Source: an uncultured cyanobacterium (GTDB taxonomy: Bacteria; Cyanobacteriota; Cyanobacteriia; PCC-6307; Cyanobiaceae). Taken from it: a stretch of DNA of 42,717 nt. This document shows, in pieces, positions 15,624 to 26,263 of the stretch. Within the stretch, counting starts at the first letter, position 1, and every line of letters begins with the position of its first letter. The stretch lies in contig CAIZQU010000060.1 of assembly GCA_903935205.1 (NCBI GenBank), positions 1-42,717 on the forward strand. The letters are read 5' to 3'. The notes under the pieces are model-generated. The model searched no databases. It worked only from the letters and a program-made list of their open reading frames with translations, and was not told the origin of the DNA. The position numbers were made by a program, and so were the translations under genes.

Positions 15624-16427
15624 ATGACGATGCCAGCTGCCCCGCCCCTGAGAGAGCTGCTGCTTCTATTTGTTGCTTACCATCCTGCTCCAGGGGAAGT
15701 TGAGCGTTTGCAGGCCTGCCTTCAGGCATTGCCGCGGAGCATGGGCTATGCGGTGGTTGTGAACGATCACCAAGCGGGTGAGGCTGTCGATGACCTGGCT
15801 GAGGAGGCGGATTACTTCCTCTGCTGTCCGGATAATCCTGGCTATGGACGAGCGGTCAATCGACTCGTTGATAAGATTGATCTCATGCCAAAATATCTTG
15901 CGGTGATGAATACCGATCTTCGCTGGGATTCGGATCTATTCCCAAAACTATATGCATGGCTTGAAGGCCATCCCGATGTTGTTTTGTCCGTTCCTCAGAT
16001 CAGGGATCCCCAGGGTGAAATCCAAAAGCTTTGCAAGCGCGATCCAACCCTGTTGGCCCTTTGTAGTCGACGTTTTTGGCCTGATCGGTTAAAGCCTGGC
16101 TGGATGAAGCGCTATGACAAGTGGTATGTGATGGATGATTGTGACTACTCAATGGTCTTTGATGTTCCTTACTTGAGCGGTTGTTGCATGTTGATGCGCA
16201 GCCAAGCTTTTTTGTCAGTTGGCGGATTCGAGGAAAAGTTTTTCCTCTATTTGGAGGATGCTGATATCACGCGGAAGCTTAGATCGTTGGGGAGATGCAT
16301 CCACCTGCCGATTGCTCCTATTGTTCACGACTGGGGACGAGGAAGTTATAGGAATATCCGCCTTATTATTGTCAATATCCATAGCGCTTGGATTTATTTC
16401 CGTAAATGGGGGTTGCAATTGTGGTAG
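15624..16427 (+). CDS. Family 2 glycosyltransferase, rhamnosyltransferase-like
   Basis: A 267-aa GT-A fold enzyme. It shows LLLLFVAYHPAPGEVERL at the start, NPGYGRAVNRLVD, and AVMNTDLRW at about residues 94-102 (the aspartate of the metal/nucleotide site). These are followed by YLSGCCMLMRSQAFLSVGGF and EKFFLYLEDADITRKLRSLG near 205-225. The combination matches the WbbL/RfbF-like GT2 group, many of which transfer rhamnose in O-antigen synthesis; the sugar used here is unknown. ATG 15624 is preferred, with ATG 15630 as an alternative; an upstream GTG at 15564 adds unrelated residues. This is the first gene of the AT-richer island and stands alone, convergent with the wzm gene. Confidence 0.88.
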   Translation: MTMPAAPPLRELLLLFVAYHPAPGEVERLQACLQALPRSMGYAVVVNDHQAGEAVDDLAEEADYFLCCPDNPGYGRAVNRLVDKIDLMPKYLAVMNTDLRWDSDLFPKLYAWLEGHPDVVLSVPQIRDPQGEIQKLCKRDPTLLALCSRRFWPDRLKPGWMKRYDKWYVMDDCDYSMVFDVPYLSGCCMLMRSQAFLSVGGFEEKFFLYLEDADITRKLRSLGRCIHLPIAPIVHDWGRGSYRNIRLIIVNIHSAWIYFRKWGLQLW

Positions 16428-16450
16428 CTCCACCGGCTTGTATCGTCCGC

Positions 16451-16468
16451 CTGGCTGTAGGCAGCCAG
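16451..16468. terminator. Hairpin between convergent GT2 and wzm genes
   Basis: CTGGCTG (16451-16457) and CAGCCAG (16462-16468) form a perfect 7-bp stem with a four-base loop TAGG, between two convergent stops. A bidirectional transcription stop is plausible, although no T-run follows on either strand. Confidence 0.45.
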
Positions 16469-16512
16469 CCCCTTGATCTGTTGGCAGACTCAATGGCTAT
16501 TGGGGCAACGAC

Positions 16513-17364
16513 TTAGACTAGAAATGGTAAGATTTTGCGCTCCCTCTTCAACAGGAGCAGAGATAGCCAGAGCCCAACAAGATTAAACAAGGCTTGTGCC
16601 AAGTTGGCGTGCAGAGCATGATGACCATTAATAATGGAATCTCTAAGCGGGCTAAAAGCACTGTATAGAGGATTGTAGTCAGCAATCCACTGCAAAGCCC
16701 CAAGGTTGGATTTCCTGTATAGGATGGGTGACAACAAAAAGACTAATTGCAGAATGATTGGTACTAGCTGGTAAAAGTCCTTGAAACGCGCGCCGATCAG
16801 GCAAATGATCAGTGGCAACCAAAACATAAAAAGTGAAAAGTTAATGATGCCAAACAGGCCGTACTGCAGGACGTTAAGCAATAGTGAGGGCTGGAAAAAG
16901 CTCAGCCCCAACAAGACCATTGGGAAGGACTGGAGAAAGGTCTGTAGTTGAAATGCCCATTCCTCGAGAGCATAAAAAAGTGGAGGCAGGTTAATATTGT
17001 TGATGCTATCGCGATTTTGCTCGAATAATTGCGGGGCATTTCCGATTGCCCCAGATAAAGAGTTCCAAAGTACCAAGCCCACACCGAGGTAGACGGCATA
17101 GTCACGAAAGTCGGAAACCTTAAAGACCGTGCCATAAACAGTTGCCAGGGTGGCGATCGAGAGCAGATTGGTGAAGCCAAGCCAGAGATTGCCTAGTTTG
17201 GTTCGCACGTAGCGAGCTTTGGTGCGGGCCGTTGCCGTGAACCACCAGACATTGCGGCTGTGCCAAGCAAAGCGAAGTTGACTCAGCGGACTCTGCTGAT
17301 TGAGCTGCCAGAGCTTGAGTAGATCTGGCGTACCAGCCAACTGAGTGGAAGAAGGAGGAATCAT
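16513..17364 (-). CDS. wzm: ABC-2 type polysaccharide export permease (Wzm-like)
   Basis: Membrane subunit of an ABC exporter that flips a lipid-linked or finished polysaccharide across the inner membrane. The 283-aa protein has an amphipathic N-terminus (WHSRNVWWFTATARTKARYVRTKLGNLW) followed by about six hydrophobic segments: LLSIATLATVYGTVF, YLGVGLVLWNSLSGAIG, LQTFLQSFPMVLLGLSFF, GIINFSLFMFWLPLIICLIG, LVPIILQLVFLLSPILY and ALFNLVGLWLSLLLL. The sequence LSPILYRKSNL..W..DYNPLYSAFSPLRD is characteristic of ABC2_membrane exporters of O-antigen or capsule. Its start overlaps the wzt stop by four bases, so the pair is translationally coupled. Confidence 0.92.
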   Translation of the reverse strand: MIPPSSTQLAGTPDLLKLWQLNQQSPLSQLRFAWHSRNVWWFTATARTKARYVRTKLGNLWLGFTNLLSIATLATVYGTVFKVSDFRDYAVYLGVGLVLWNSLSGAIGNAPQLFEQNRDSINNINLPPLFYALEEWAFQLQTFLQSFPMVLLGLSFFQPSLLLNVLQYGLFGIINFSLFMFWLPLIICLIGARFKDFYQLVPIILQLVFLLSPILYRKSNLGALQWIADYNPLYSAFSPLRDSIINGHHALHANLAQALFNLVGLWLSLLLLKRERKILPFLV

Positions 17365-18158
17365 GCTTGGTTAGAGGATGTTTTACGATGATAAAAGCTA
17401 AGTGCTTCTTCTAGCTCTCCATCCATCACAATCTTGCCTTGGTTAAACACTAATCCTCGTGTGCAGAACTGTCTTAACAGTTCATCGGAGTGGGAGGCCA
17501 GCAGCAATGTCCCAGCCGTGTCGAGGAAGGCGTCCAGGCGTCGTTGTGCCGCCTGCATGAAGCTACTATCACCAGTGCCAAAGCCCTCATCGATGGCAAG
17601 GCATTGATGAGGAATGCCGGTAAGAATAGCGAATAGAAGTCGGGCTGCCATGCCCTGACTATAGCCTTTAATCGGAAGATAGACGTAATCCCCCAAGCCA
17701 CAGAAAGTGATGACATCTTCGGCATATGACTTGAATCCTCTTAGGTTCCCGTGAATGGTTAGGTAATGGGCCTTGATCGCCTGTAGTCCGCTGAGCTCGT
17801 GGCTTGTGACAAAGCTACGGGTGATCATTGGATAGACAAATTGATGAACCTTTAACTTGCCAGATGTGGGATGATAAATGCCACTGACCAAACGCAAAAA
17901 AGTGCTTTTACCAGAGCCATTATGACCAATCAGAGCAACTCTTTCACCGTTGTTAATCGTCAGGTTGAGCTCGCGCAGGGCGTGCACAGTCGATCGACCA
18001 CGTTCTTGCTGAAGTTTGCCGCCAGTTAGCGAGCGCAAAAGTGCAGTGCCGATACTGCGACTTTCGCTTGAAAAAATAGGTATTTGCAGATTAACATTCT
18101 CCAGCTCTAATATGGGAACAGGATGAACCGCATTGGCTCGCGCTTCGGCTGTGTTCAT
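17361..18158 (-). CDS. wzt: Polysaccharide ABC exporter ATPase (Wzt-like, short form)
   Basis: ATP-hydrolysing partner of the Wzm-like permease. Walker A GHNGSGKST is at residues 78-86, the signature is the export-type IKGYSQGMAARL, Walker B is CLAIDEGFGTGD, and the switch histidine is in LASHS. The N-terminus LELENVNLQIPIFSSESRS.G matches polysaccharide exporters (Wzt/TagH/KpsT type). At 265 aa it ends soon after the nucleotide-binding domain (ALSFYHRK) and so lacks the C-terminal carbohydrate-binding domain that selects finished O-antigen in E. coli O8/O9a Wzt. ATG 18158 gives a sensible N-terminus; an open frame further upstream is not supported. Confidence 0.93.
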   Translation of the reverse strand: MNTAEARANAVHPVPILELENVNLQIPIFSSESRSIGTALLRSLTGGKLQQERGRSTVHALRELNLTINNGERVALIGHNGSGKSTFLRLVSGIYHPTSGKLKVHQFVYPMITRSFVTSHELSGLQAIKAHYLTIHGNLRGFKSYAEDVITFCGLGDYVYLPIKGYSQGMAARLLFAILTGIPHQCLAIDEGFGTGDSSFMQAAQRRLDAFLDTAGTLLLASHSDELLRQFCTRGLVFNQGKIVMDGELEEALSFYHRKTSSNQA

Positions 18159-18201
18159 CAGTGCAGTGCCCAAGTGTTGCCGGGGAGTTAGCCTATGCTG
18201 C

Positions 18202-18231
18202 CATATGGTAACACATCTTGGCGAGGTGCAA
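18202..18231 (-). promoter_or_regulatory. Weak promoter candidate for wzt-wzm
   Basis: On the minus strand TTGCAC (18231-18226) and CATATG (18207-18202) are separated by 18 bases, about 44 bases before the wzt start. The -10 matches only half the consensus. Confidence 0.25.
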
Positions 18232-18286
18232 TTGTTCCCTAAGCCTCCGCCATTCGCTCCTTGTTGGCGCTGCCGCAATGGTGCTC

Positions 18287-18316
18287 TTGCCAAGATAAAG
18301 GGGGATGCGATAAAAT
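18287..18316 (+). promoter_or_regulatory. Promoter candidate for the glycan gene run
   Basis: TTGCCA (18287-18292) and TAAAAT (18311-18316) are separated by 18 bases and lie just upstream of the large glycosyltransferase start at 18338. Both boxes are close to the sigma-70 consensus. This would drive the whole forward run to gmhB, whose genes are tightly packed. Confidence 0.45.
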
Positions 18317-18337
18317 CGGCTGATACGATGACCAATC

Positions 18338-20485
18338 ATGGTGGCAACGGCTGGGGTGGGCGCAAGTCATTTGGGGTTTGATTCTGCTTCCAATAGTGCC
18401 CCACTTGAGACTGTTTATGCCCTGTATGAAACTGCCAGCCCAGCGGATGACTATCGGGCCTTTGCTTATCTGATGCGTCTTCAGGAATCACTGTCTGGCG
18501 AAATTGATATTCAGGCTCGTATTTTAGGTCGATATCGTGGTCCTCGACTGCGTCGACAGGCGATCTCGGCCAAGGAGCCCTGGAGACAACGTCGATCTCC
18601 CCATCTTCGCGGAATCGGCCGATTGCGTCGGCGCGTCCTGTCTGGCTTTAACTTCTTGCCAAGCTATCACTGGTTCTCAAGTATTGACGGCAATCTGTAT
18701 GCCGCCCTCGCTTGGATGCGAACATGGAATCGCGCCGACTCAAAAGCGGTCTTATTTGCCTATGGTCTTGATCGTGGCTTGAAACTTGTCGAATTAGTCT
18801 TCCTCTTTGCGCGCGAGATTCCTTCTGGAATTGTTCTGGTTCTGCTAGGAGCCAACGAACTGAATCCTCAGAAGTTAATGCGCTTGAAGCGTTGGGGTGT
18901 GACGGTGCTGCTCGATGGTGCGGAGGCTATTCCCACACAGGCGAATCCCGAAGTGGAATTGCCTGTTTTTGAATTCAGTTCTTCAGACGAGATGCCATTG
19001 TTGGCAGAAAAATATCCCAGGGTCTCCTGGGATCCCATGCTTAGAGACGCTGTTCTTAAGAATAGAAATCCAGAGAAGGTTCTGTTTTTTCGACCTGATT
19101 GGAGCAAGTGCGGATCGGCTACGACCTTTGCCAAGCTGTCCAGTCTGTTCAAGGATCGGGATGCAATTCTGATCGATGTGGCCCTGCAGCCCCATCGTGT
19201 TTTCTGTGACGCTCAGAACGTCAAGGAAAAACTTGCCGATGCAGAGGCGGTATTATCTCCTGCTTTCCACTTTAATCTCCGACGTTCATCTCTACCAGTA
19301 GCGGCCTGGAAAATTGCCTGGTACACGCTCCTGCGCCGCCCCCGAACGGTTGCGGGTTATATGGCCGTCTTTTACATGCAATGCAAGGTTCCTGGAATTG
19401 CCAGACGATTGATTGGCAATGCTCGCATTGACTACTTGTATGTCAATCACTATTTTAGCTTGCCCGTGGCCAAACGTCTTCGCGGTGATCGCCCTGTTTT
19501 CTTGGATACCCATGACATTCAGTCCTTAAACTTTATCTCTCATGATTATCATCAGCAGGTTAATATGAGGGCTTCTCCATTCACCAAGTGCCTGCAAGAG
19601 GAGTTGGCCATTGTCGACACAGCAGATCGGGTGACCATGGTCAGTCGAGAGGAAATACAGCTTGTCAACAAATATCGTCCAGCCAATTATTATTGTTACT
19701 ACATACCTCTTCCTGATATCCAGCCAAGCTCTGCAGCGCCCGATCCAGCGGCTCCTATTGTGGCGGTCACCAATTCGGTGGCTCCCAATGTGGCAGCGCT
19801 CGATTCGGCAGCACCCAATCTTGCAAGACCCAATGTTGCAACCCCCAATGTTGCAGCACCCAATGCTGCAGCACCCAATGCTGCAGCACCCAATGCTGCA
19901 ACACCCAATGCTGCAACACCCAATGCTGCAACACCCAATGCTGCAACACCAAAACCCCCAAGGCTCATTGCCCTCATTGTTGCTAGCCGTAACCCAGCCA
20001 ATGAAAGAAGCTTGACATGGTTTCTAAAGGTTGTATGGCCGCGAGTGACCCATTTGCCTTATAATCTCACGATAGTTGGGACCATCAATCGTTACTTTGA
20101 AGGAAGTTCATTCCCGAATGTTCATTTTGCCGGCATTGTTGACGATCTCCAAGCCTATTATCAGTCTGCTGATCTTGTGATTCTACCGATCACGAACGGT
20201 GGCGGCATTGCCATTAAAACTCTTGAGGCTATTCAGGCCGAGTTGCCTATCGTTTGCACGCGTCATGCCATGCGCGGTTTGCCCGTTGAAGTTCAGGCAC
20301 TCCTGCCGGGCAACCTCACGGATCAAGATCTTGTCGATGACTTAACCCATGTGGCTTTGAGCCATGATGCCCTCGCCCAGCGCCGCACCCATACAGCGAT
20401 GGCGCACCAAGCGTTACTATCAATCAACTTTGATGAAAAATTGCACCATGAGCTTGATATGATCTGCGATAGAAGTCGTGAGTGA
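18338..20485 (+). CDS. Large GT4-type glycosyltransferase with pentapeptide-repeat linker
   Basis: A 715-aa protein. Residues 1-~130 are of unknown nature with a basic stretch (RYRGPRLRRQ); ~130-460 look like a GT-B N-terminal domain (VLFAYGLDRGLKLVEL, YLYVNHYFSLPVAKRL, FLDTHDIQSL, IVDTADRVTMVSREE). Residues 464-538 are fifteen pentapeptides of the type NAATP. Residues ~540-715 are a Glyco_trans_1_4-type C-terminal domain with PRLIALIVASRNPANERSLTWFL, LTIVGTINRYFE, and the nucleotide-sugar site ADLVILPITNGGGIAIKTLEAIQAELPIVCTRHAMRGL. The repeats sit exactly where a short Pro-rich hinge would normally join the two GT-B lobes. It is divergent from wzt and 7 bases upstream of the next gene. Donor sugar unknown. 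Confidence 0.85.
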   Translation: MVATAGVGASHLGFDSASNSAPLETVYALYETASPADDYRAFAYLMRLQESLSGEIDIQARILGRYRGPRLRRQAISAKEPWRQRRSPHLRGIGRLRRRVLSGFNFLPSYHWFSSIDGNLYAALAWMRTWNRADSKAVLFAYGLDRGLKLVELVFLFAREIPSGIVLVLLGANELNPQKLMRLKRWGVTVLLDGAEAIPTQANPEVELPVFEFSSSDEMPLLAEKYPRVSWDPMLRDAVLKNRNPEKVLFFRPDWSKCGSATTFAKLSSLFKDRDAILIDVALQPHRVFCDAQNVKEKLADAEAVLSPAFHFNLRRSSLPVAAWKIAWYTLLRRPRTVAGYMAVFYMQCKVPGIARRLIGNARIDYLYVNHYFSLPVAKRLRGDRPVFLDTHDIQSLNFISHDYHQQVNMRASPFTKCLQEELAIVDTADRVTMVSREEIQLVNKYRPANYYCYYIPLPDIQPSSAAPDPAAPIVAVTNSVAPNVAALDSAAPNLARPNVATPNVAAPNAAAPNAAAPNAATPNAATPNAATPNAATPKPPRLIALIVASRNPANERSLTWFLKVVWPRVTHLPYNLTIVGTINRYFEGSSFPNVHFAGIVDDLQAYYQSADLVILPITNGGGIAIKTLEAIQAELPIVCTRHAMRGLPVEVQALLPGNLTDQDLVDDLTHVALSHDALAQRRTHTAMAHQALLSINFDEKLHHELDMICDRSRE
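19727..19951 (+). repeat. 15-bp coding minisatellite, 15 units
   Basis: Fifteen in-frame 15-bp units encode, in order, SSAAP, DPAAP, IVAVT, NSVAP, NVAAL, DSAAP, NLARP, NVATP, NVAAP, NAAAP twice and NAATP four times. The last four units (19892-19951) are almost identical at DNA level (AATGCTGCAACACCC) and the first ones are degenerate. That polarity suggests recent copying at the 3' end. Loss or gain of units keeps the frame. Confidence 0.95.
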
Positions 20486-20492
20486 TTGACAC

Positions 20493-22688
<2,196 letters not shown>

Positions 22689-22698
22689 GGATTGTTGA

Positions 22699-23937
22699 GT
22701 GAAGGATCGATTGCTTCGGTTTTGTCGCCTGATGATTGTCGGCAGCCCGTGGATGCTCACCATGCTGTTCCGTTTCACCAGTCCGTTGCGTTTTTTAGTT
22801 CAATCCCGTCGGCCACGAATTTGTATTGACTCTAATAAGCCAGCGATATTGTTTGTCGATAGTTCTATTCCGCAGTCGGATAGAGACGCCGGAGCCGTTA
22901 CACTGGTTCAGTTCATGCGTCTGTTTGTTGATCATGGCTGGGCTGTCTATCTCTGTCCTTTGGCCCAGACCGCGCACGATGCCTCGCATTCCAAGCTGAT
23001 TCAATCTGGCATTCACGTCATATCGCCGGGGCGATATTCGTTGTTTACCTGGTTAGGCCGCAATGCCCAATATTTTCAGGTTATATTTTTAAGCCGCCCT
23101 CCCGTGGCCGCCCTTCTGCTGCCAATCCTAAAGCCTATTCGCGCGATAATTGCATATTATGGCCATGATTTGCATGGTGAGAGATTTCGCCTAGAGGCCC
23201 TTCATTCAGGCCATTGGGAACTGAACTGGATCTCCCGCCGATATCTCGCCGTCGAGCGCTCGATTTCACAACGTGTTGATGTTAGTTACTATCCATCTGC
23301 AGACGAAGTGAGGCAAATGCGGGCGCTTGAGCCGGAGGCTAACATCAAGGAGTTGCCAGCATATTCCTATGATTTTGAGCATATGCCTCCGATCAGGCTA
23401 ATATCCGGCAGGCGCTTCCTGTTCGTCGGTAATTATCGCCATCAGCCCAATCTTGACGCTGTTACCTGGTTAATAAACGAGATCTGGCCGCGGATACGTG
23501 GTGAGATTGCTGGGGCAGAACTCCAGATTGTAGGCGCTAACCCTCCTGCTGATCTTGTGCATGCGACGCATCTGCAACAGGATATCCATTGGAACGGTTG
23601 GCTGTCTGACCAGGAGTTGGATCAACTCTATCAATCGAGTCGTGTGGTTCTCGTTCCTCTTCGCTACGGTGCTGGCGTCAAGCATAAGGTCGTTTCGGCG
23701 GTAGCTCAGGGCTGCGCTGTTGTTAGCACAGATACCGGATTGCAAGGTCTTCCTGAGCTGCAGAAGCTTGTTGGCTTGGCCATGACACCCGAGGATTTTG
23801 CAAAGGCTTCCTTAGGGCTTATACTTGATGATAAGCTCTGGCTTTCCAGGGTTGCCGCCGCTCGAAAAGCACTTGCTGTCCGGTTCAGCTCTCAATCCAT
23901 GTGGCAAGCACTCGATGATCTTCATCACTTCAGCTAA
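22699..23937 (+). CDS. GT4 family glycosyltransferase
   Basis: A 412-aa GT-B enzyme. The N-terminal lobe has PAILFVDSSIPQSDRDAG (a glycine-rich donor-side opening often seen in O-antigen glycosyltransferases) and VIFLSRPPVAALLLPIL. The C-terminal lobe has FLFVGNYRHQPNLDAVTWLINEIWP, AELQIVGANPP, and VVLVPLRYGAGVKHKVVSAVAQGCAVVSTDTGLQGLP, the usual nucleotide-sugar binding region. The hydrophobic stretch near residues 12-30 may help membrane attachment. The start is GTG 22699, ten bases after the previous stop. The sugar transferred is unknown; heptose is possible given the four heptose genes downstream. Confidence 0.88.
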   Translation: MKDRLLRFCRLMIVGSPWMLTMLFRFTSPLRFLVQSRRPRICIDSNKPAILFVDSSIPQSDRDAGAVTLVQFMRLFVDHGWAVYLCPLAQTAHDASHSKLIQSGIHVISPGRYSLFTWLGRNAQYFQVIFLSRPPVAALLLPILKPIRAIIAYYGHDLHGERFRLEALHSGHWELNWISRRYLAVERSISQRVDVSYYPSADEVRQMRALEPEANIKELPAYSYDFEHMPPIRLISGRRFLFVGNYRHQPNLDAVTWLINEIWPRIRGEIAGAELQIVGANPPADLVHATHLQQDIHWNGWLSDQELDQLYQSSRVVLVPLRYGAGVKHKVVSAVAQGCAVVSTDTGLQGLPELQKLVGLAMTPEDFAKASLGLILDDKLWLSRVAAARKALAVRFSSQSMWQALDDLHHFS

Positions 23938-23940
23938 CGG

Positions 23941-24990
23941 ATGACATCTATTCGCTTCCCAGGTGTGATTCGCTCCAGGGCATCCCTGCGCCTCGGCCTT
24001 GCGGGTGGTGGTACCGATGTTTCACCCTATTGCGATGTTCATGGTGGCTATGTCCTCAATGTCACCATTGATCGTTATGCCTACACTGTTCTCCGCCTGC
24101 TTGATGATGCTGCCATTTGCTTGGAAGCCTCTGATCAGCAGGTTTCTTGCCGATGCCCACTGCAATCAGAGCTTCCCCTGGATGGCCAGTTAAATCTGCA
24201 TAGAGCTGTCTACAATCACTTCATCCGAACCTACAATAACGGTCAGCCCATACCCCTGCAGATCAACACTTTTTGTGATGCTCCTGTTGGTTCTGGTCTC
24301 GGATCTTCGTCCACGCTTGTGGTGGCCATGATCAAGGCTTTTGTTGAGCTGCTGAATGTGCCGCTCGATGATTATGCGATTGCCGCACTCGCCTTCAAGA
24401 TCGAGCGCGTTGATTGTGGCTTGCAAGGAGGACGACAAGATCAGTTCTCTGCCACGTTTGGCGGCTTTAACTTTATGGAGTTCTACGATAATGAGCGGGT
24501 TGTCGTTAACTCTCTTCGCATTAAAAATTGGATCATGTGCGAGCTTGAGGCGTCGTTGATCCTGTATTTCACTGGTGTTTCTCGCGAGTCTGCTCACATC
24601 ATTTCTGATCAAAGTTCCAACGTCTCGGCGGGAGTAACGGATGCCATTGCGGCCATGCATGGCATCAAGGAAGAGGCTTTGACCATGAAGGAATCGCTGT
24701 TAAGAGGGGACTTCCAGGGGTTTGTGGATTCAATTCGCATGGGTTGGGACAACAAAAAGCGAACCGCTGCTACGGTTACCACGCCTCGGGTTGATCATAT
24801 TTACGAAACGGCTTGTGAAGCTGGCGCATCGGCCGGTAAGGTTTCAGGTGCAGGCGGTGGAGGATTCATGTGGTTCTTTGTGCCCACTGAGAAGCGAATG
24901 GATGTCATCCGTTCACTCAACGCACTTGGTGGCCAGGTCAGTAATTGCCATTTTACTAAGCAAGGCACACAAGCTTGGAGGATTGCATGA
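23941..24990 (+). CDS. hddA: D-glycero-alpha-D-manno-heptose 7-phosphate kinase (HddA-like)
   Basis: GHMP-family kinase expected to phosphorylate D-glycero-D-manno-heptose 7-phosphate at C1, giving the alpha-1,7-bisphosphate. The N-terminus RSRASLRLGLAGGGTDVSPYCDVHGGYVLN is the recognised opening of HddA-type kinases. The ATP loop PVGSGLGSSSTLVVAM is at about residues 117-132, and KVSGAGGGGFMWFFVP near residue 300 is the third GHMP motif. The 349-aa length fits. The substrate is inferred from the three companion heptose genes directly downstream; the next gene overlaps it (ATGA). It starts 3 bases after the preceding glycosyltransferase. Confidence 0.92.
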   Translation: MTSIRFPGVIRSRASLRLGLAGGGTDVSPYCDVHGGYVLNVTIDRYAYTVLRLLDDAAICLEASDQQVSCRCPLQSELPLDGQLNLHRAVYNHFIRTYNNGQPIPLQINTFCDAPVGSGLGSSSTLVVAMIKAFVELLNVPLDDYAIAALAFKIERVDCGLQGGRQDQFSATFGGFNFMEFYDNERVVVNSLRIKNWIMCELEASLILYFTGVSRESAHIISDQSSNVSAGVTDAIAAMHGIKEEALTMKESLLRGDFQGFVDSIRMGWDNKKRTAATVTTPRVDHIYETACEAGASAGKVSGAGGGGFMWFFVPTEKRMDVIRSLNALGGQVSNCHFTKQGTQAWRIA

Positions 24991-25571
24991 GAACTTATAT
25001 CACTTCTCAGTTTCAGGCCACCCAGAAACTGCTGGCACAGATGTTGGCGGACCCAAGCTTTTTGGATCGCCTTGAGGCGGCCGCTCAGGCGTGCATCACC
25101 TGCTTTCAAGACAGCCATAAGATCCTGCTAGCTGGCAATGGTGGGAGCGCTGCCGATGCGCAGCACATCGCCGGTGAATTCGTTAGCCGCTTTGCCTTTG
25201 ATCGTCCGGGTTTGCCCGCCATGGCACTGACCACCGATTCGTCAGTGCTCACGTCCATCGGCAACGATTACTCTTACCAGTCTCTGTTCTCCCGTCAGAT
25301 CCAGGCCCACGCTCTTCCTGGAGATGTGTTCATTGCCTACTCGACTTCAGGGGCATCGGCCAATATCATTCGAGCCCTCGAGGAAGCCCGCCAGCGACAG
25401 GTTGTTTGCATCGGTATGACTGGGAGTCGCGGTGGTCCGATGCATGACCTCTGTGATCATCTCTTGGCTGTGCCCAGTCCTGAAACCCCAAAAATTCAAG
25501 AGGGTCATGCTGTTATCGGACATATCCTGTGCGGTCTTGTCGAACGGGCCATCTTTTCTCCTCCGGCTTAA
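24987..25571 (+). CDS. gmhA: Sedoheptulose 7-phosphate isomerase
   Basis: GmhA converts sedoheptulose 7-phosphate to D-glycero-D-manno-heptose 7-phosphate, the first committed step to nucleotide heptoses. The SIS-domain features are all present: LLAGNGGSAADAQHIAGEFVSRF (residues ~46-68), ALTTDSSVLTSIGND, YSTSGASANIIRALEEAR, and IQEGHAVIGHILCGLVE with the conserved C-terminal Gln/Glu and His residues. The 194-aa length is typical. The ATG at 24987 lies in the ATGA overlap with hddA, and its TAA overlaps the hddC ATG by one base, so translation of the cassette is tightly coupled. Confidence 0.95.
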   Translation: MRTYITSQFQATQKLLAQMLADPSFLDRLEAAAQACITCFQDSHKILLAGNGGSAADAQHIAGEFVSRFAFDRPGLPAMALTTDSSVLTSIGNDYSYQSLFSRQIQAHALPGDVFIAYSTSGASANIIRALEEARQRQVVCIGMTGSRGGPMHDLCDHLLAVPSPETPKIQEGHAVIGHILCGLVERAIFSPPA

Positions 25572-26263
25572 TGGAAGCGATTGTCCTCGCCGGGGGTCTT
25601 GGCACTCGTCTACGCCAAATCGTGCCTGATCGGCCCAAGCCGATGGCGCCGATTGGAGACCGCCCGTTTCTAGAAATTCTTCTCTCTGCCCTGGCCGCAA
25701 ATGGCTTCAGGCGCGTTGTCCTGTCACTTGGTTTTCGAGCGGAATCTATTCTTGATTATTTCGGCTCTGAGTTCGCCGGGATGGAACTCTGTCCTGTCAT
25801 TGAATCAACTCCGTTAGGCACTGGAGGCGGAGTTAGGCTGGCCATGGCGGAGATCAATGCTGACCATGCCTATGTTTTTAATGGTGATACATTTCTGGAT
25901 CTTGAAGTCGCGTCCGTCGAGGCTCAATGGCTGACCAACCAACGTCCGATCATCATTGGCCGGCAGGTTGATGATGCCCATCGCTATGGAAGCCTGACGG
26001 TTCACGACGGTTTGGTGACAGGATTCCTGGAGAAGGGTCTTCGTGGCCCTGCATTGATCAATGCCGGTTGCTATGTGCTCCCCCGGGCCCAACTGGATCT
26101 CTTTAATCCGGGTCAGCCTTTTTCGCTGGAGCAGGATTTTCTCATCCCGCTCGTGCGTCGTGAGAAGGTTGATCTCTTTGTGACTGAAGGGCAATTTATT
26201 GATATTGGCATTCCTGATGACTTCCAGCGAGCTCAGTCATTGCTGGATTCCGTTTATCGCTGA
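25571..26263 (+). CDS. hddC: D-glycero-alpha-D-manno-heptose 1-phosphate guanylyltransferase (HddC-like)
   Basis: Nucleotidyltransferase that would join GTP and D-glycero-alpha-D-manno-heptose 1-phosphate to form GDP-heptose. The signature EAIVLAGGLGTRLRQIVPDRPKPMAPIGDRPFLE occupies residues 2-35, followed by VVLSLGFRAESILDYFG, ESTPLGTGGGVRLAM, YVFNGDTFLDLE (metal-binding Asp) and INAGCYVLPRAQLD. The C-terminus FIDIGIPDDFQRAQ is typical of sugar-phosphate nucleotidyltransferases. The 230-aa length matches HddC rather than longer mannose-1-phosphate enzymes. The heptose assignment rests mainly on its position between gmhA and gmhB and next to hddA. Confidence 0.9.
   Translation: MEAIVLAGGLGTRLRQIVPDRPKPMAPIGDRPFLEILLSALAANGFRRVVLSLGFRAESILDYFGSEFAGMELCPVIESTPLGTGGGVRLAMAEINADHAYVFNGDTFLDLEVASVEAQWLTNQRPIIIGRQVDDAHRYGSLTVHDGLVTGFLEKGLRGPALINAGCYVLPRAQLDLFNPGQPFSLEQDFLIPLVRREKVDLFVTEGQFIDIGIPDDFQRAQSLLDSVYR

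Follow-up and report, generated by a model that had tools for sequence, protein, structure and literature searches.

The stretch analyzed here, called the window, comprises 42,717 nucleotides of contig CAIZQU010000060.1 from an uncultured cyanobacterium of the family Cyanobiaceae (assembly GCA_903935205.1). One gene of its predicted surface-polysaccharide cassette codes for a GT-B-type glycosyltransferase, and the hinge between the two lobes of this enzyme is built from an array of tandem 15-bp units. The reading we favor, with a probability of about 0.7, is that the array is a lineage-specific in-frame minisatellite in a Pro/Ala-rich GT-B connector, which is tolerated as a by-product of repeat copying and is not a tuning device.

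An array of fifteen consecutive 15-bp units had been reported in the initial annotation, and its presence is borne out by comparison with chance. Identity at a lag of 15 bases is 0.77 over the 225 bp, compared with 0.37 ± 0.03 in 5000 codon shuffles (maximum 0.50). The units stand head to tail inside the open frame and their length is divisible by three, i.e., they form a minisatellite whose unit number can change without breaking the frame, as was also proposed. Frameshift-based on/off phase variation does not apply, since changes of whole 15-bp units preserve the frame. Tandem Repeats Finder (TRF) recognized the 3’ part of the array (19808-19950, 9.5 copies, 92% matches, score 216) and reported for the 5’ part no more than a degenerate period of 30 bp. 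Taken by themselves, the seven 5’ units have a lag-15 identity of 0.54 (0.32 ± 0.05 in the shuffles), a value reached by none of the 5000 shuffles, and we therefore regard them as true decayed repeats. The unit had been given as NAATP; this holds for the last four of the 15 units, while the others range from SSAAP to NAAAP, and the majority bases across all units encode NAAAP. Of 31 codon differences from the majority unit, 23 are non-synonymous, and units 8-15 are composed solely of Asn, Ala, Val, Thr and Pro.

The described decay at the 5’ side and near-identity at the 3’ side are also confirmed, as two units from the 1-7 group differ on average at 6.7 of their 15 bases and two from the 8-15 group at 1.5. 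Mean distance falls with unit order (Spearman rho -0.83, permutation p 0.0005), and adjacent units are more similar than distant ones (Mantel r 0.41, p 0.001). Because of this gradient, the latest growth of the array appears to have taken place at the 3’ side, although local amplification within the 3’ part would look alike. That the array or its unit number was produced by misassembly is barely credible. The assembly is a draft of 169 contigs, tandem arrays are error-prone, and the last four units, which are nearly identical, may have been miscounted. However, most units are distinguishable, the frame is preserved throughout, and the longest exact internal repeat of the array is 49 bp, which is shorter than ordinary reads.

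The array joins the two lobes of the enzyme, as claimed initially. We delimited the hinge by the positions that align with P457 and A545, at the last strand of the N-lobe and the first strand of the C-lobe. Measured in this way, with exact lengths dependent on the alignment, it has 87 residues in the window protein and 17-26 residues in all 21 aligned glycosyltransferases of the genus. These relatives are the orthologue described below, the second GT4 of the window genome (L022) and 19 genus loci (L003-L020 and L023); the second piece of the orthologous gene (L021) and a low-complexity match (L024) were omitted. The repeat-built hinge is real and unusual for such enzymes, and tandem growth in a glycosyltransferase hinge is not ordinary in the genus.

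A single orthologue was found, in genome G030 (contig CAIOGZ010000092.1 of the metagenome-assembled genome Loclat_bin-14864). It has 650 amino acids, is 62% identical to the window protein, and is embedded in the same gene order: mutS, ribH, GT2, ABC permease, ABC ATPase, glycosyltransferase, FkbM methyltransferase, GT4, GHMP kinase, SIS isomerase and nucleotidyltransferase. The window gene families were taken from profile matches, whereas mutS, ribH and all G030 gene families were named by eye. The hinge of the G030 protein, VPDSVPKPVSNAPCRSPVLQ, contains Pro and Ala and has no repeats. A linker of the same sequence throughout the homologues, which the initial annotation had named as a counter-argument to its proposal, is not seen, as the single orthologue found lacks the array. 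The hinges of the other aligned relatives are short as well, which makes gain in the window lineage more probable than loss in G030. The array is missing from one orthologue and 20 further glycosyltransferases, a lineage-specific presence judged from few genes.

Outside the hinge, the two enzymes have remained similar. Amino acid identity is 69% in the N-lobe and 67% in the C-lobe, compared with 30% over the 20 aligned hinge residues. Second codon positions are identical at 0.82 and 0.81 of sites in the two lobes, and third positions at 0.40 and 0.35. As second positions are conserved and third positions near saturation, both lobes appear to be under purifying selection; the near saturation also indicates that the split from G030 is old. 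These values bear on the idea that selection is relaxed and that the array reflects damage to a gene in early decay, which we consider highly improbable. The next gene also carries an unshared expansion (14 TCA codons for Ser), and the window protein lacks the first of the glutamates in the classical GT4 motif. However, the G030 orthologue also has no glutamate at this position, conservation at second codon positions is roughly double that at third positions in each lobe, the 715-residue frame is intact and the gene order is preserved.

Searches for further relatives added little to the comparison. A family search at E 1e-12, in which the best two candidates were scored in most genomes, matched 3 of 400 genomes: the window genome, G030, and G001 with a C-lobe-only match. 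A class search with the N-terminal part matched 1 of 388 genomes, the window genome itself; G030 was evidently not drawn. Two scans of named genomes, which depend on exact matches to short peptides and may overlook relatives, gave nothing in the first case, even though G030 was included, and G030 alone in the second. The 13 records found in a plasmid search all matched the C-lobe part only. The search within the genus covered 42 genomes.

Tandem arrays are found well beyond this gene. In a 271-kb sample drawn from other parts of the window genome, made up of 20 contigs that were each taken from the first base, there are 19 non-overlapping arrays with a TRF score of at least 80 (7.0 per 100 kb), four of which score at least 150, and G030 has 17 arrays scoring at least 80 in 175 kb (9.7 per 100 kb). 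In all sampled sets, window included, 30 of 44 arrays scoring at least 80 have a period divisible by 3. As a control, we used an unrelated protein (L065:12054-13106:-) that was matched in all 42 genus genomes. Its linker, measured between two fixed anchors, spans 64-187 residues in 28 loci (30 were fetched, and L098 and L120 were dropped for a missing anchor); 24 of the 28 have 64-115 residues and four have 148-187. The longest is that of the window genome, where the linker carries an array with 24- and 36-bp periods by TRF, and several other loci show short tandem units of their own by eye. Because of this length range and these separate units, linker growth is ordinary in the genus.

Other arrays were observed in the same genomes. 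In the window genome, an acidic, putatively translated array rich in Glu, Asp, Gly and Asn (L061:18779-18924) lies in a frame that continues into a methyltransferase judged RsmI-like by eye. Further arrays there are L060:4409-4565 (7/14-bp), L057:1-137 (8-bp, at a contig start) and L070:2-285 (repeats of 120 bp within an open frame, likewise at a contig start); the two contig-end arrays (L057 and L070) may have broken the assembly at these points. One G030 contig (C80, L080:11-13212) has long arrays with periods from 126 to 498 bp and TRF scores up to 1590, which are probably large repeat proteins.

The repeat sequence itself appears to be of local origin, as it was found neither elsewhere in the genome nor in the other genus genomes nor in viral contigs. 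With patterns of two units or longer, the two-unit pattern (at most 3 mismatches) gave 7 matches across the window genome, all within the array, and none in the 41 other genus genomes, and the exact 33-base array pattern matched no viral contig. A mobile or copied repeat was rejected on these grounds. A protein search with the linker had matches in 10 of 42 genomes, the window’s own included. The best match outside the array had E 8.3e-5 (window genome) and the best in another genome E 3.6e-4; these are weak and low-complexity by eye.

The favored reading of a tolerated minisatellite can be put as a sequence of events. A minisatellite would have arisen in the Pro/Ala-rich connector between the GT-B lobes of the cassette enzyme and expanded through strand slippage or unequal exchange, with the latest growth at the 3’ side. 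It would have persisted because the connector is presumably disordered and the 15-bp unit is frame-safe. The lobes would still be held by their interface and by a second chain crossing, which the window protein likely has. In GT4 enzymes generally, the chain crosses between the lobes twice. If this second crossing holds, the longer first linker would loop out and not set the lobe separation, and the extra loop would probably be neutral or have a mild kinetic effect. It is possible that the long hinge affects kinetics, for good or bad. In GumK, the N-domain is made up of residues 13-201 and 362-380, with a linker at 202-209 and a return stretch at 353-361, and interlobe contacts were decisive for domain motion in simulations (excerpts of PMC12768416). 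With two such passages of the chain, the separation of the lobes should not depend on hinge length alone. The enzyme itself looks selected because both lobes are conserved around the array. No enzyme-specific purpose of the array is needed, because arrays are common in these genomes and also occur in the linkers of an unrelated protein.

Several points weigh against a merely tolerated array. The hinges of all 21 relatives have 26 residues or fewer, which argues that glycosyltransferase hinges do not usually permit such growth; some constraint or benefit may therefore be involved. Excerpts on GumH and GumI (PMC13104830) and on GumK (PMC12768416) indicate that lost interlobe contacts together with a flexible linker may favor inactive conformations; by analogy, a long hinge could be costly. 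Judging from the codon positions, the array could be of any age since the old split from G030. Furthermore, two complete genus genomes have only 4 and 2 arrays in 120 kb each (3.3 and 1.7 per 100 kb), although neither a difference nor an equality between genomes follows from these densities, as the draft samples begin at contig ends, where repeats gather.

If the hinge does have a benefit, it might be that of a fixed, extended tether of constant length, for example one reaching a bulky lipid-linked acceptor or a partner protein, with the repeats being only the mode of building. Such a tether is unlikely, even though 87 residues are far beyond the 17-26 of the relatives, the lobes stay conserved, and the last eight units have a restricted composition. 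The G030 enzyme, putatively active like the window protein, stands in the same gene order without the array. Moreover, the array has decayed in its 5’ half, with mostly non-synonymous codon differences, and the long linker of another protein in the window genome also carries an array.

The initial annotation had instead seen a tunable hinge, in which cells or strains would differ in the number of units and thereby in the distance or flexibility between the lobes, with effects on activity or chain length. The in-frame unit, the near-identical 3’ units and the 49-bp exact repeat do favor length mutation, and the array lies at the hinge position. Linker structure was also found to affect domain opening in simulations of GumH and GumI (excerpts of PMC13104830), and futB of Helicobacter pylori has 12 heptad repeats in strain PMSS1, compared with 4 in SS1, which was derived from it by passage through mice (excerpts of PMC5358919). 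Still, we find a tunable hinge quite improbable. Within the one genome per species that the analysis covered, no variation in unit number was seen, and a tuning role finds no support. Going by GumK, contacts and the second chain crossing also define the cleft between the lobes (excerpts of PMC12768416), and even for H. pylori the excerpts of PMC5358919 give the consequence of repeat number as not yet known. Arrays are also found in the linkers of the unrelated protein, and a polymerase or chain-terminating role of the enzyme is only putative. The evolutionary variant of this reading, a fast-mutating, frame-safe length dial whose unit differences within a population would change turnover, acceptor reach or glycan length without on/off switching, is very improbable.

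In the nearest precedent, the fucosyltransferases FutA and FutB of H. pylori, the repeats follow the catalytic domain on its C-terminal side and do not join its lobes, a layout that differs from that of the window array between the lobes. Like the window protein, these alpha-1,3-fucosyltransferases are surface-glycan glycosyltransferases with an in-frame tandem array, and their heptads are described as placing the active sites at various distances from the surface (excerpts of PMC5358919). Their units are heptads whose number differs between related strains (excerpts of PMC5358919), whereas the window protein has 5-residue units that join the lobes and are known from one genome. By analogy, a dial by repeat number can be said to have a real cousin in futB. 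The window array also resembles in-frame intragenic minisatellites of disordered linkers, which share the short unit divisible by 3, the diverged and uniform parts, the lineage-specificity and the low-complexity product. Unlike these, the window array lies in the hinge of a two-lobed catalytic domain and is known from one genome. The coiled-coil chain-length regulator WbdD of Escherichia coli O9a (excerpts of PMC3482155) likewise belongs to a polysaccharide cassette with ABC export, and a methyltransferase gene is next in the window, but the window array has no predicted helix (at low confidence) and lies within a glycosyltransferase. No repeat array within the hinge of a GT-B enzyme, or within a glycosyltransferase from cyanobacteria, was noted in titles and abstract beginnings among the matches listed, with partial coverage of the literature.

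The description of the host as a two-lobe GT-B enzyme is sound for the C-lobe, while the N-lobe rests on sub-threshold matches and the protein has an additional N-terminal region of about 245 residues, which has no Pfam or NCBIfam match. The C-lobe is matched by PF13692 with E 1.1e-15 and 58.6 bits (cut-off 27), i.e., as a GT4-like donor lobe. In the N-lobe, PF13439 matches residues 352-447 below its gathering score (E 0.0054), and TIGR03087 spans both lobes of the G030 protein (residues 340-617), below its cut-off. Compared with GT4-type GT-B enzymes (PimA, WaaG and HepE; PF13692/PF13439, TIGR03087), the window protein is alike in C-lobe family and weakly so in the N-lobe, and it adds the 87-residue repeat-built hinge and the family-less N-terminal region. 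AlphaFold2 models from two-row alignments have a mean predicted local distance difference test score of 39.4 for the window protein and 40.6 for the G030 orthologue; they are usable for the C-lobe only, as N-lobe confidence is low and the lobe arrangement is unreadable. Residues 446-542 are modeled without secondary structure, at very low confidence. Foldseek matched the model to PimA (171 columns, E 7.7e-5), WaaG and HepE without giving the query range, and the matched part is probably the C-lobe, because this is the sole confident part of the model. A sequence search for a solved structure of the window protein found none at E 0.01.

Table 1. Features of the array-bearing glycosyltransferase gene in the window.
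Feature	Position	Strand	Details
GT-B-type glycosyltransferase open reading frame, array-bearing	18338..20485	+	715 amino acids; family matches and G030 orthologue
N-terminal region, about residues 1-244	18338..19069	+	55% identical to G030 orthologue; putative boundary
N-lobe, about residues 245-457	19070..19708	+	69% identical to G030; weak PF13439 match; putative boundary
Interlobe (hinge) segment, residues 458-544	19709..19969	+	87 residues; 20 in G030 orthologue
Fifteen 15-bp units, head-to-tail array	19727..19951	+	residues 464-538
Seven diverged 5’ units	19727..19831	+	SSAAP DPAAP IVAVT NSVAP NVAAL DSAAP NLARP
Eight near-identical 3’ units	19832..19951	+	NVATP NVAAP NAAAP NAAAP NAATP (x4)
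C-lobe, residues 545-715	19970..20482	+	PF13692 at residues 547-645

The gene lies in a region of low G+C (16000-26000, 0.49-0.53 compared with 0.62-0.75 elsewhere) that coincides with the polysaccharide cassette. The cassette includes an ABC exporter pair and HddA-, GmhA- and HddC-like heptose genes, all NCBIfam matches below the cut-offs, which suggests that a heptose-containing polysaccharide is its product. The downstream FkbM-methyltransferase open reading frame (20493-22688) has 14 consecutive TCA codons at 21283-21326, a run that its G030 orthologue does not have.

GT-B enzymes close their two lobes across a short joint. About 65 extra residues in this joint, together with an orthologue that lacks them in the same gene order, make a ready-made experiment on hinge length. 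As one of many tandem arrays in the genus, the array is also a lead on the growth of protein linkers.
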